32,192 nt of DNA, taken from positions 1 through 32,192 of the forward strand of contig CANRNM010000009.1 of the NCBI GenBank assembly GCA_947631975.1, in the 5' to 3' direction. Source of the DNA: an uncultured Clostridia bacterium (lineage in GTDB: Bacteria > Bacillota > Clostridia > Lachnospirales > CAG-274). Positions within the stretch are counted from its first letter, which is position 1, and each line of letters begins with the position of its first letter. Both the position numbers and the translations under genes were made by a program. Shown here one piece after another: positions 11,189 through 15,624 of the stretch. The notes beneath the pieces are model-generated. The model was not told the DNA's origin. It did not search any database and was given only the letters and a program-made list of their open reading frames with translations.

Positions 11189-11722
11189 TCAATTAAGAGC
11201 GTCATATATGCTGTCGGCTATCACCTCGGACATATTCATCACTACGGACAATCTGGTGCTCTGGAGCTGATTTATGCCGTTTAGGCTCCATTTATTTACT
11301 ATACCCGTTATTGAAATGTCCCCTATTCTGGAAAGCTTTTTGGATATTCCCGCGCCGGGGCTGAGAGAGCCCTCCCAAATGCTTAGGCTGCCAATGTGGT
11401 CGTATATGCCGAGGCTGGCGTCAATAGCTATTACCATGGGTTTATCGTAGGTATCATAGAGCTGTTTTATTTTTTCATCCATATTGACGGCGTGTACGGG
11501 TCTGTCTATAGTGCCCATTACATTATCCATACCCAAGGACATAAGCCTTGTGCCCACAAGAGGACCCAGCGAGTCGCCCGTCGCCCTGTCGGTGCCGATG
11601 CAGAATATAACTATGCAGTTATGTTTGTCCTTATGGTTTGAGATATGTTTTTTTATACTGCTGCTAAGCATATGCCTGCAGTTGATGTCCGATACAGATA
11701 TATATTCCCTGTCGCTGTACAC
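11189..11722 (-). CDS. yyaC: YyaC-family spore protein (DUF1256, GPR-endopeptidase-like)
   Basis: The 177-aa protein carries CIGTDRATGDSLGPLVG, DRPVHAVN and AIDASLG, the signature of the YyaC/DUF1256 family. This family is related to the germination protease fold and is limited to spore formers. Its exact role is unknown; the family is usually linked to sporulation or germination. The start is GTG at 11722 with GAGGTGG upstream. It sits divergent from the MPN-like/LysM gene across a 177-bp gap. Its presence is the best indication here that the organism sporulates. Confidence 0.85.
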   Translation of the reverse strand: MYSDREYISVSDINCRHMLSSSIKKHISNHKDKHNCIVIFCIGTDRATGDSLGPLVGTRLMSLGMDNVMGTIDRPVHAVNMDEKIKQLYDTYDKPMVIAIDASLGIYDHIGSLSIWEGSLSPGAGISKKLSRIGDISITGIVNKWSLNGINQLQSTRLSVVMNMSEVIADSIYDALN

Positions 11723-11899: not shown

Positions 11900-12976
11900 A
11901 TGACGAATGACGAAGCTAACAGCTTACCTAACAATGTTAAACAAATAGGCAGTATCTCGGGAAACGACAGAATATATCTTGAGGACTATGCCGGTACATA
12001 TCTTGAACAATATGCCTCATCACAGAACGGGAGCGAAAAGATTGCCCTGCTCGTGGGCAGAAATCTTACAATAAATAATGACAACGTGCTTTTTATAAGC
12101 GGAGTGATACAGGGAAAATATACCATACAGAAAAACGGTATGCCCGAGCTTACCGAAAAAAGCTGGCAATATGCCGAAAAGCAGATAGAAATGTATTTCA
12201 AGGACTGCGCCGTTGTGGGCTGGGCATATGTACAGCCCGGCTTTGAGGACTATATAAGCGAAAAGCTCTGCAGCTTTCAGAAGCAGTGCATAGCCAAGGG
12301 GCTCCAGGTGCTCTACATAACCGATCCCGCCGAAAAGATATCGGGCTTTTACAGATGGAACAACAACGAAGAAAACTTCGAGGCTATAAACGGATACATA
12401 ATATATTATGAAAAGAACGAGGGCATGCACGAATATATGCTTGAAAACAAAATAAAGGAGGACAAGCCATCGGAGGAAAGCAGAGATGAAGCCACGGATG
12501 CGGGAGCCAGAGCCAGAGCCGTTACATCGGCAAAGAAAAAGAAAAAAGGCAGGCACTATTCGCAGGCAGACCAGACAAGGACTATAAATCTTTTGGGCAG
12601 TCTGAGCTTTGTTATGCTTTTGGTTTGCTTTATAATGGGAGTGGGACTGGTACAAAATGACGAAAGGATAAATTCTTTAGAGCTTCAGCTGGCATCGCTT
12701 GAAAACGAATTTGAGAACACAAAGGAAGTATTTGCGGCGTATACCGCGGCACAGGAAACCACCGCACAGACCACCATCGAAACGACCACAGAGGAAACAA
12801 CGCTTCAGAAAAAAGCCGAAGCCGAACCTGTGAGATATACCGTAAAAACAGGCGATACTCTTATTAAGATAAGCAATACAAAGTACGGAAGCTCCGCAAG
12901 AGTGGACGATATCAAAGAGCTTAACGACCTTAAGAGCGATAAAATTATAGTGGGCAAAACATTGCTTCTGCCCTAG
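11900..12976 (+). CDS. Membrane protein: degenerate MPN/JAMM-like domain, TM helix, coiled coil, LysM
   Basis: No named family is recognised for the whole 358-aa protein. Residues about 20-185 follow the MPN/JAMM pattern: IYLEDYAGTYLEQYA, a strand at ALLVGRN, then VVGWAYVQPGFEDYISEKL and ITDPAEKISGFYRW. In active JAMM peptidases the centre reads H-x-H-P-G-x(6)-S-x-x-D; here both histidines (Tyr, Gln) and the aspartate (Leu) are replaced, so it should be a non-catalytic MPN domain. A basic KKKKKGR stretch precedes one membrane helix (about 230-252). A short coiled coil, a Thr-rich spacer and a C-terminal LysM domain (YTVKTGDTLIKISN...) follow. The N-terminus should be cytosolic and LysM outside, touching peptidoglycan. 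A histidine kinase gene follows after 15 nt. Confidence 0.75.
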   Translation: MTNDEANSLPNNVKQIGSISGNDRIYLEDYAGTYLEQYASSQNGSEKIALLVGRNLTINNDNVLFISGVIQGKYTIQKNGMPELTEKSWQYAEKQIEMYFKDCAVVGWAYVQPGFEDYISEKLCSFQKQCIAKGLQVLYITDPAEKISGFYRWNNNEENFEAINGYIIYYEKNEGMHEYMLENKIKEDKPSEESRDEATDAGARARAVTSAKKKKKGRHYSQADQTRTINLLGSLSFVMLLVCFIMGVGLVQNDERINSLELQLASLENEFENTKEVFAAYTAAQETTAQTTIETTTEETTLQKKAEAEPVRYTVKTGDTLIKISNTKYGSSARVDDIKELNDLKSDKIIVGKTLLLP

Positions 12977-12991
12977 GAGAGTGAAAAAAAT

Positions 12992-13615
12992 ATGAACAAT
13001 GAACTTGCTGCGGCTCTGGCGCATGAAATAAAAAATCCCATAGCGCTTATAAGAGCTAATATAGATTATCTTAAGCTGAGCACAGGACAGGAATACGAAA
13101 GGTATTTTGATATAATAAATAAGGAGCTTAACAAGCTTAACAGCCTTATTTCCGACTACACGGAGATACTTCAGCCGGAGATAAGAAACGAAATAATATA
13201 TCCCGAGGACCTTATATACGATGTTACAGAGGAATTTGCCATACTCGGCAAGAAGGATATAAGCTTTGAGTTTAAAATTGACGGCGATATAAGGCTTAAG
13301 GGCGACTACAAAAAGCTGTCAATACTGCTCTTTAATATTTACAAAAATTCGGCAGAGGCAATAAAGGAAAACGGAGTAATAAGGACAAGCCTATACGGCA
13401 AAGACGGCAATATAATAATAGAAATCGAGGACAACGGAGGAGGAATAGCGCAGGATATAATAAAAAATGTAGGGACGCCTTTTTTTACTACAAAATCGGG
13501 CGGAAGCGGGCTTGGAATAATGATTTGCAGGACCGTTATGGAAGCCCACGGCGGAGAGATACATATTGAGAACACAAAAAACGGCTGTCTTACAAGACTG
13601 ATATTCCACAAATAA
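12992..13615 (+). CDS. Minimal soluble sensor-less histidine kinase
   Basis: The 207-aa protein consists only of a dimerisation/phosphoacceptor domain and an ATPase domain. The H-box ALAHEIKNPIALIRAN places the phospho-histidine at residue 11. The N box (NIYKNSAEAI), G1 (DNGGGI), F (TPFFTTK) and G2 (GSGLGI) boxes are complete, so autophosphorylation is likely. It has no sensor, membrane segment or receiver, and no response regulator gene is nearby. The start ATG follows the upstream LysM gene's stop by 15 nt, with GGAG overlapping that stop. The upstream membrane protein is therefore an attractive sensory partner (inference). In Clostridia such orphan kinases often feed Spo0A, but nothing in the sequence proves this. 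Confidence 0.88.
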   Translation: MNNELAAALAHEIKNPIALIRANIDYLKLSTGQEYERYFDIINKELNKLNSLISDYTEILQPEIRNEIIYPEDLIYDVTEEFAILGKKDISFEFKIDGDIRLKGDYKKLSILLFNIYKNSAEAIKENGVIRTSLYGKDGNIIIEIEDNGGGIAQDIIKNVGTPFFTTKSGGSGLGIMICRTVMEAHGGEIHIENTKNGCLTRLIFHK

Positions 13616-13680: not shown

Positions 13681-15624
13681 ATGGAAAGAATGCAGGAACT
13701 TATAGAAATACTTAACAGGGCGTCAAGAGCCTATTATCAAGAGGACAGAGAGATAATGAGCGACTTTGAATATGACAGGCTCTACGATGAGCTTTGCTCG
13801 CTCGAAAACGAAAGCGGTATAGTGCTTTCGTCAAGCCCTACGCAGAAGGTAGGACATCAGGTCTTGAGCTCCCTGCAAAAGGTCAGACACGAAAGCCGTA
13901 TGCTCTCACTTGACAAAACAAAGAGTATTGAGGCTCTTAAGGACTTCTTAGGGGAGCACAGGGGTATTCTTTCCTACAAAATGGACGGGCTTACCGTGGT
14001 GCTTACCTATCGCGACGGAGAGCTTTATCAGGCTGTTACGAGAGGTAACGGCGAAATTGGCGAGGATATAACGCATAACGCCAGATTTTTCAAAAACATA
14101 CCTCTTAAGATAAGCTTCAAGGGCGAGCTTGTGCTAAGAGGCGAGGCTGTCATTTCATTTGATGACTTCAATATAATAAACGAAAAGCTGGAAGCCGACG
14201 ACAAATATAAAAATCCCAGAAATCTTTGCAGCGGAACGGTAAGACAGCTCAATTCCGAGATTGCGGCAAAGAGAAATGTATGCTTTATAGCCTTCGCCCT
14301 TGTTAAGGCGGACGATATAGACTTCGGCGACGACAAGAACAGCAGATTTAAATGGCTGGAAAAAATGGGCTTTGAGTGCGTTCAGCGCAAAATAGTGGAT
14401 AAGGACAATATAGAAAATGCCGTAAAGGAATTTGAAGCGCAGATACCCGACAATCCCTTCGCTACGGACGGACTTGTGCTCACATTCAGCAGTATGGAAT
14501 ATTCCTCATCCTTGGGCGAAACTGCCAAATTCCCCAGAGATTCCATTGCCTTTAAATGGGCGGACGAGCTTGCCGAAACAAGACTTCTGGCTGTGGAATG
14601 GAGCACATCCAGAACGGGACTTATAAATCCCATAGCTATATTCGAGCCCGTGGAGCTTGAAGGAACGACGGTCGAAAGAGCCTCTCTTCACAATATCAGC
14701 ATAATTGAAGGGCTTGAACTGGGCATAGGCGACAAAATAAAGGTATATAAAGCCAATATGATAATACCGCAGGTCGCCGAAAACATCACAAGAAGCAACA
14801 GCCTTGAAATACCCTCCGTATGCCCCGTATGTAAGGAAGAAGCCGAAATAATAGGCTTAAGGGACGGAAAGGCTCTTAAATGCACAAATCCTAACTGCAG
14901 AGCGCAGAGAGTTTGCTCTCTCGAGCACTTTGTGTCAAGGGACGCAATGAATATAGAGGGTCTTTCGGAAGCTACAATAGAAAAATTCATAGATAAGGGC
15001 TTCTTGGATAATTATACCGATTTTTTCAGGCTTGAAAGATACAAAGACGATATAATCGCTATGGAGGGCTTCGGCGAAAAATCCTATAACAATCTTATAA
15101 ACGCCATAGAAAGAAGCCGTGATGCAGCCCTGCCCAACTTTATATATGCCCTTGGAATAAACAATGTGGGCTTGAGCAATGCAAAGCTTCTTTGCAAAAA
15201 ATACAGAAATTCGCTTGAGGATATAAGGAACGCGGAGTTTGACGAGCTTATTGCCGTTGACGGCTTCGGCGAGGTGATAGCCAGAAACATAATAAAATAT
15301 TTTGATTCGGAGAGCAGTAACAAACTTCTTGACGAGGCTCTTGAATTTATACACTTTAAACAAAGCGACGAAGACGAAGGCGGAACACTACTTGAGGGAA
15401 AGACCTTTGTAATAACGGGCGATGTGCATATATTCAAAAACAGGAAGGAAATGCAGTCAAAAATAGAAGAACTCGGCGGAAAGGTTACAGGAAGTGTGAG
15501 CGCAAAAACAACATACCTTGTAAACAACAACATAAACTCCTCATCCTCAAAGAACAAAAAAGCCAAGGAGCTTGGAATACCCATAATAAGCGAAGAGGAC
15601 TTCATGGAAATGATAAGAGAATAA
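13681..15624 (+). CDS. ligA: NAD-dependent DNA ligase, divergent subtype
   Basis: The enzyme seals nicks using NAD+. The 647-aa protein has the Ia domain (YYQEDREIMSDFEYDRLYDEL), the adenylation domain with active-site lysine in SYKMDGL, an OB fold, a four-cysteine zinc finger (CPVC...CTNPNC), helix-hairpin-helix repeats and a C-terminal BRCT domain (LLEGKTFVITG). Several usually strict motifs differ: the common KIDG reads KMDG, NPRNAAAGSLRQL reads NPRNLCSGTVRQL, and the OB-fold RAGDVIP region reads KANMIIP. The lysine, zinc cysteines and BRCT are intact, so it should be active. It may be a second ligase beside a canonical LigA elsewhere; that cannot be judged from this window. AAGGAGA precedes the ATG. 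Confidence 0.93.
   Translation: MERMQELIEILNRASRAYYQEDREIMSDFEYDRLYDELCSLENESGIVLSSSPTQKVGHQVLSSLQKVRHESRMLSLDKTKSIEALKDFLGEHRGILSYKMDGLTVVLTYRDGELYQAVTRGNGEIGEDITHNARFFKNIPLKISFKGELVLRGEAVISFDDFNIINEKLEADDKYKNPRNLCSGTVRQLNSEIAAKRNVCFIAFALVKADDIDFGDDKNSRFKWLEKMGFECVQRKIVDKDNIENAVKEFEAQIPDNPFATDGLVLTFSSMEYSSSLGETAKFPRDSIAFKWADELAETRLLAVEWSTSRTGLINPIAIFEPVELEGTTVERASLHNISIIEGLELGIGDKIKVYKANMIIPQVAENITRSNSLEIPSVCPVCKEEAEIIGLRDGKALKCTNPNCRAQRVCSLEHFVSRDAMNIEGLSEATIEKFIDKGFLDNYTDFFRLERYKDDIIAMEGFGEKSYNNLINAIERSRDAALPNFIYALGINNVGLSNAKLLCKKYRNSLEDIRNAEFDELIAVDGFGEVIARNIIKYFDSESSNKLLDEALEFIHFKQSDEDEGGTLLEGKTFVITGDVHIFKNRKEMQSKIEELGGKVTGSVSAKTTYLVNNNINSSSSKNKKAKELGIPIISEEDFMEMIRE

Follow-up and report, generated by a model that had tools for sequence, protein, structure and literature searches.

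A membrane protein with a predicted pseudo-JAMM domain and LysM is co-inherited with sporulation in an order of Clostridia and adjoins a sensor-less histidine kinase in one clade

It is still an open question how Clostridia perceive their conditions and activate Spo0A, and a 2024 review counted dozens of families in the class as completely uncharacterised (PMC11210211). One locus of an uncultured Clostridia bacterium, from a gut lineage, raises this question in a particular form. In the window, by which we mean the whole stretch of 32,192 nucleotides that was analysed, a membrane protein gene is followed by that of a histidine kinase devoid of a sensor, and a preliminary description had taken both for a two-gene module in which the membrane protein senses the cell wall and gates the kinase. 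What is this membrane protein, and what does the kinase have to do with it? The two open reading frames, their coordinates, the gap of 15 nt between them (12977-12991, both genes on the + strand) and the histidine at residue 11 of the kinase were all confirmed. The genes of the locus are as follows.

11189..11722, - strand: yyaC (DUF1256) spore gene (Pfam PF06866, 9e-50), divergent to the membrane protein gene in 57 of 99 loci
11900..12976, + strand: membrane protein gene, 358 aa (open reading frame, 180 of the 246 genomes searched in the order have orthologues, full-length model)
12992..13615, + strand: sensor-less histidine kinase gene (HisKA-HATPase), 207 aa (Pfam, family-invariant residues)
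13681..15624, + strand: ligA, 3' neighbour of the pair in close relatives only

The membrane protein is present in 36 of 41 relatives, in one copy each, and in its degenerate form in the 180 genomes of the order mentioned above, so it is not a chance reading frame. It was 94% identical in metagenome-assembled genomes of uncultured Clostridia bacterium, and a relative with 68% identity was Candidatus Gallispira edinburgensis. The start codon of the kinase shares the frame of the membrane protein gene, with TAG and five codons between them; this is probably chance, as it is absent in the close relative L014. No response regulator adjoins the pair in the window, and ligA is probably outside the system. 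In another family of the class a divergent MPN-TM protein (L083, 9125-12018; STHP, without LysM) lies 30 nt 5' of ligA, which in the window likewise comes after the pair.

The cytosolic half of the membrane protein had been described as a degenerate MPN/JAMM-like domain with its metal ligands replaced. The following positions were considered.

11933..12448, + strand: MPN (pseudo-JAMM) domain, residues 12-183 (AlphaFold, Foldseek, profile, Pfam JAB in relatives)
12035..12037, + strand: Glu46, JAMM catalytic residue, kept in 86 of 99 order members and the sole catalytic residue kept order-wide
12227..12235, + strand: Tyr110-Val-Gln112, in place of His-x-His (residue comparison); 90 of 99 order members have Gln at the second position
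12257..12268, + strand: Ser120-Glu-Lys-Leu123, in place of Ser-x-x-Asp (residue comparison)

Pfam and NCBIfam missed the domain on the window protein alone, and phmmer of the single domain against PDB sequences returned only one match, meaningless at E 0.49, so that a profile was required. The AlphaFold model, built on an alignment of 24 orthologous domains, reached a pLDDT of 89.8 and a pTM of 0.87. The fold search had been chosen beforehand as a possible refutation, and the fold was that of MPN, not an unrelated one: in Foldseek against the PDB yeast Rpn11 was best (E=1.8e-9), followed by Caldiarchaeum Rpn11, BRISC, BRCC36, CSN5/CSN6 and eIF3 chains, and all of the best 50 matches were MPN proteins or complexes containing them. 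The family profile also matched Caldiarchaeum Rpn11 (6fjv) at 4.1e-6, and eukaryotic Rpn11 and CSN5 more weakly, while Pfam JAB was matched by 6 of the 24 orthologous domains (best 1.8e-6). By its predicted fold the window protein belongs to the MPN/JAB superfamily, in agreement with the preliminary description. It keeps E46 and S120 of the JAMM ligands, with the first histidine (H1) replaced by Y110, the second (H2) by Q112 and the aspartate by L123. Across the order H1 remains in 27 of 99 members and the aspartate in 17 of 99; the clade of the window has lost both, besides H2. Considering that the zinc site E...H-x-H...S-x-x-D is incomplete, the protein is predicted not to be an active JAMM metalloprotease (MPN+).

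Other variants of the architecture were seen. Two MPN-TM-LysM proteins (L079, 704-1867; L080, 8990-10156) have the second His of H-x-H changed to Cys (HTCPG) with Ser and Asp kept, possibly an altered metal site; the L079 gene precedes ethanolamine-utilisation-like genes. Two strongly degenerate MPN-TM-LysM proteins of family f64 (L081, 3176-4189; L082, 8384-9520) lie beside flagellar genes.

After the MPN/JAMM domain, the membrane protein continues with a basic linker, one TM helix, a helical stalk, a T/E-rich linker and LysM.

12590..12649, + strand: TM helix, about residues 231-250, with a conserved MGxGL core (hydropathy, conservation, helix 223-286 in the model)
12728..12736, + strand: Val277-Phe-Ala279, where the extracytoplasmic helical stalk ends (conservation 76-82% per column)
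12836..12973, + strand: LysM domain, residues 313-358 (Pfam PF01476, 5.1e-9)

The full-length model showed the MPN domain, a disordered basic linker, one long helix (223-286) comprising TM and stalk, a disordered T/E-rich linker and LysM; the placement of the domains in it is not to be trusted, as the mean pLDDT was 76. Since KKKKKGRH precedes the TM helix, the positive-inside rule predicts an N-in/C-out topology with LysM outside. This domain scored above the Pfam cut-off and, in that location, would bind peptidoglycan. The helix, the basic stretch and the LysM match therefore agree with the cytosolic MPN-like domain, single helix and external LysM proposed earlier. The motif VF[AS] at the stalk end was found in 67 of 96 members in an otherwise unconserved region, and Val-Phe-Ala looks like a signal-peptidase site (V-x-A) or a binding motif.

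A profile search at class level found relatives in 17 of 291 genomes; when the phylum was searched with the intact type, 30 of 399 genomes gave matches. Several of these relatives have the full H-x-H-P-G...S-x-x-D together with TM and LysM, for instance L076 (GWQHTHPGYGIFLSNYD) and L078 (GWFHTHPGFGIFLSKYD). Three operons were read complete, and in them the closest intact-JAMM relatives (L076, L077, L078), which are JAB-TM-LysM or JAB-TM proteins, stood among YukD/E1/E2/RING genes; those of L078 and L076 were typed as Prok-RING_1, JAB-TM-LysM, UQ_con (E2), ThiF (E1) and YukD (Ubl). All three operons are apparently complete, with Prok-RING, one or two JAB-TM proteins, E2, E1 and YukD, and the E2 of L076 carries a fused FHA domain. 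From this location of the intact relatives it follows that a bacterial ubiquitin-like system was the source of the MPN-TM-LysM architecture. The proteins of the order form one group in the tree (93/62), separate from the intact relatives; the direction from active to dead JAMM is what we infer from a tree rooted by midpoint only. A query that recovers E2 proteins from two other families at about 1e-50 found none in the 246 genomes of the order, and Ubl, E1 and E2 are all absent among the neighbours of the window genes. Judged by neighbours for Ubl and E1 and genome-wide for E2, the window protein is not a component of a bacterial ubiquitin-like conjugation system. PADLOC gave zero matches on both window proteins, and for this reason no defence label was given to them.

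The occurrence of the membrane protein was then compared with that of SpoIVA, which is above cut-off in 178 of the 246 genomes of the order. Both were present in 169 genomes, the membrane protein alone in 11, SpoIVA alone in 9 and neither in 57, and many of the 20 discordant genomes are incomplete. The association has a Fisher p of 8e-35, a value that ignores the relatedness of the genomes, and because of this flagellin and within-family controls were included. Flagellin, also patchy in the order, showed no association with the membrane protein (OR 0.87, p=0.76). In the flagellated genomes of family f6 there were 7 with both, 0 with the membrane protein only, 1 with SpoIVA only and 20 with neither (p=7e-6); the corresponding numbers in family f96 were 9, 0, 0 and 12 (p=3e-6). 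Plain phylogeny was rejected as the cause of the association, given the unassociated flagellin and the persistence of the link within f6 and f96. Occurring in spore-formers and absent from non-formers, the membrane protein ranks among the sporulation genes of the order, and its presence tracks sporulation and not the kinase. Both the fold and the sporulation link are well supported computationally.

The oldest conserved neighbour of the membrane protein gene is yyaC, whose divergent position is found on both sides of the deepest split of the tree. The yyaC1 and yyaC2 genes of C. perfringens belong to sporulation and depend on spo0A and sigE (PMC9332280). A sigE-like pattern was found 5' of yyaC in 9 of 54 loci vs 1.2 expected, figures to be read with the non-independence of relatives and a control that shuffles single bases only. 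The patterns of other sporulation sigma factors in this intergenic region were near chance, with a mild sigA-like excess on the side of the membrane protein. Perfect Spo0A boxes (TGTCGAA) were located 99-119 nt 5' of the membrane protein gene in 6 of 85 upstream regions, against 0.75 expected, none of them in the lineage of the window; they are suggestive only, as a hint at early expression of the membrane protein in some lineages.

The kinase is bare, as first described. Pfam HisKA (4.1e-11) and HATPase_c (1.2e-18) cover nearly the whole protein and no other domain was matched. The phospho-acceptor is His11 (AHEIKNP, codon 13022-13024), and H11, N119 and G171/173/175 of the G2 box are invariant across the adjacent kinase family. 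With this histidine and intact N, G1 and G2 boxes, it belongs by sequence to the histidine kinases of the HisKA type. It is not a classical two-component sensor, since an input domain was found in 0 of 45 adjacent kinases and the pair of the window has no regulator. All 45 are short (two of them run off the contig or locus end), which ruled out that the kinase is a fragment of a longer gene. The genome of the window holds 13 HisKA kinases, and only the paired kinase and one HAMP-type kinase (on contig C64) are without a regulator on their own contig. Among 22 receiver-domain matches, two are within Spo0A-type proteins; the canonical Spo0A (L165, Spo0A_C 1.1e-45) is an orphan regulator. A second Spo0A-type protein (L173, 1099-1851, G000:C4) has Spo0A_C at 9.9e-28 and a weak receiver domain at 4.1e-7.

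Rare adjacency of the two genes had been named as evidence against the module, and the neighbourhood search gave a divided answer. The kinase lies directly 3' of the membrane protein gene in 45 of 99 loci, always on the same strand, and all these pairs belong to one clade of the MPN tree (96/94), where they make up 45 of 62 loci vs 0 of 37 outside it; in this count an f6 row on a long branch, which groups with the clade in the tree, was taken as outside. The clade spans 11 families; the pair is found in nine of them (f1, f5, f10, f11, f16, f92, f93, f97, f99) and is absent in f12 and f15, while in seven loci of a single f1 genus, and in parts of f5 and f93, the membrane protein is kept but no kinase adjoins it. 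A single gain followed by losses is the simplest reading. The module is thus conserved in one clade, but it describes part of the range only, because the membrane protein is older and wider, tracks sporulation, adjoins yyaC and has intact relatives in ubiquitin-like operons. As a whole, the earlier interpretation is partly supported. Similar short sensor-less kinases were observed away from the membrane protein in f7, f8, f14, f95 and f96 (L190-L196), in a conserved neighbourhood with a HIT protein, a MurG-like transferase and mostly also a secreted SH3-CAP protein.

We propose that the membrane protein descends from a JAMM protease that was anchored to the wall and belonged to bacterial ubiquitin-like systems, and that it was domesticated with loss of catalysis. 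Its pseudo-JAMM domain would lie on the cytosolic side of the membrane and its LysM would bind peptidoglycan on the other side; that its presence tracks SpoIVA suggests that it serves sporulation. Eukaryotic pseudo-MPN proteins such as Rpn8 and CSN6 are scaffolds, and the dead MPN domain may be a docking scaffold in the same way; that the protein is a wall-anchored sporulation scaffold is likely. In the clade of the window a sensor-less HisKA-HATPase kinase would have been added downstream, recruited and gated at the membrane by the MPN-LysM protein according to the state of the envelope, and it would phosphorylate or dephosphorylate Spo0A. Here we infer both the gating and the target. Recruitment and gating appear the likeliest arrangement considering that the kinase itself lacks both input and membrane domains, and quite possibly they occur in this clade, although we would not call them probable. 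Since the neighbour of the bare kinase is a membrane protein that has a protein-binding fold in the cytosol and a wall-binding domain outside, and the hosts are spore-formers whose Spo0A is an orphan, the simplest reading is a two-part envelope receptor that gives the kinase its missing input and feeds the state of the cell wall into the sporulation decision of Spo0A; we hold this to be possible but doubtful. The explanation in its entirety, a domesticated pseudo-deubiquitinase that became a wall-anchored sporulation protein and in one clade recruits and gates a kinase, probably towards Spo0A, is tentative and falls a little short of an even chance. Gating cannot be the general function of the protein, which in many families is retained together with sporulation although no kinase lies next to it.

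The main rival of kinase gating is a late structural role, in which the MPN-LysM protein would be a sporulation envelope protein with its MPN domain docking another spore protein, tying for example the membrane to the germ-cell wall or cortex in engulfment or spore maturation, and the kinase would be independent or merely co-expressed. We consider this a possible account that leans to the doubtful side. The co-inheritance with SpoIVA needs no kinase, and the LysM and the long rigid stalk of the model would suit it. It is also favoured by the divergent yyaC with its sigE-like pattern and by the sigE-dependence of this gene in C. perfringens: yyaC is late, and this fits a late structural role equally well as initiation, which counts against gating. 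Moreover, LysM domains are often plain anchors and not sensors, a point against wall sensing. However, a late role leaves unexplained a sensor-less kinase kept directly downstream across nine families, and the excess of Spo0A boxes hints at early expression in some lineages.

It is unlikely that the two genes share the locus and work by separate mechanisms, the kinase being a soluble, free-standing protein under other control that acts on Spo0A as a kinase or phosphatase, or works as a phosphotransferase like Spo0B. Spo0B is derived from HisKA-HATPase and of similar size, and the sequence-close short kinases of five families stand away from the membrane protein in another conserved neighbourhood; against this, the ATPase boxes of the window kinase are intact, unlike those of Spo0B, and adjacency, strand and order have been maintained even between families whose remaining synteny has broken down. 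Far less probable still is that the domain has remained a protease of the JAMM type, or that it holds a metal through altered ligands (Glu/Gln/Asp), in spite of the nearly invariant E46, the members that keep H1 or Asp, and the nearly invariant Gln112, which suggests a kept pocket function. The window protein has lost both His and Asp, and the E2 of a matching system is missing from all 246 genomes of the order.

Whichever account is preferred, roughly three in four of the order's sampled genomes carry the membrane protein gene, whose link with spore formation is about as close as that of a core spore gene. Being widespread, sporulation-tracking and paired with a bare kinase in one clade, it is a concrete candidate for testing. 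It would represent a bacterial ubiquitin-pathway protease repurposed with loss of its active site, in a lineage without a detectable ubiquitin-like E2.

By comparison with known systems, the window protein shares the MPN fold, by structure and profile, with Rpn11, CSN5 and BRCC36 and with the inactive MPN partners (Rpn8, CSN6, eIF3), and like the latter it would keep the fold with the JAMM ligands lost. Unlike the Rpn11/CSN5 family, it is bacterial and predicted to be membrane-bound, fused through a TM helix to LysM, with no proteasome or signalosome. The bacterial YukD/E1/E2/RING/JAB operons are predicted prokaryotic ubiquitin-like systems (Iyer 2006, PMC1779556; further PMC7159879) and the home of its closest intact relatives (L076, L077, L078), whereas the window protein has no H-x-H and Asp, its neighbours are yyaC, the kinase and ligA, and E2 was not found in its order. 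The main texts of both articles are silent on LysM. In relation to the ubiquitin-like defence systems BilABCD and type II CBASS, the E1 of a related operon gave weak PADLOC E1-E2 and BilD matches and its JAB matched the PADLOC JAB models, in contrast to the window proteins, which have neither PADLOC matches nor conjugation genes nearby. In the mainly open literature we found no description of MPN-TM-LysM, of its sporulation link or of the kinase pairing; the subscription-only Burroughs papers of 2011-2012 on prokaryotic RING and E2 may list JAB-LysM fusions.

In Clostridia, orphan kinases phosphorylate Spo0A directly (PMC11210211). The kinase of the window resembles the orphan sporulation kinases (KinA-E, PtpA-C, Clo1313_0268; PMC11210211) in having HisKA-HATPase, no adjacent regulator and a Spo0A in the genome. 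Similarly bare is Clo1313_0268 of A. thermocellus, a HisKA-HATPase protein of 239 aa marked as a truncated product and listed with a Spo- mutant phenotype (PMC11210211). The window kinase differs from this group in its lack of PAS, TM or other input, in its conserved MPN-LysM neighbour and in its putative Spo0A target. The YyaC/DUF1256 spore genes (PMC9332280) are a neighbour of the membrane protein gene and not its homologue. The component parts are of known kinds; new here are the location of the closest intact relatives in ubiquitin-like operons, the co-inheritance with sporulation together with the divergent yyaC, and the confinement of kinase adjacency to one subclade.
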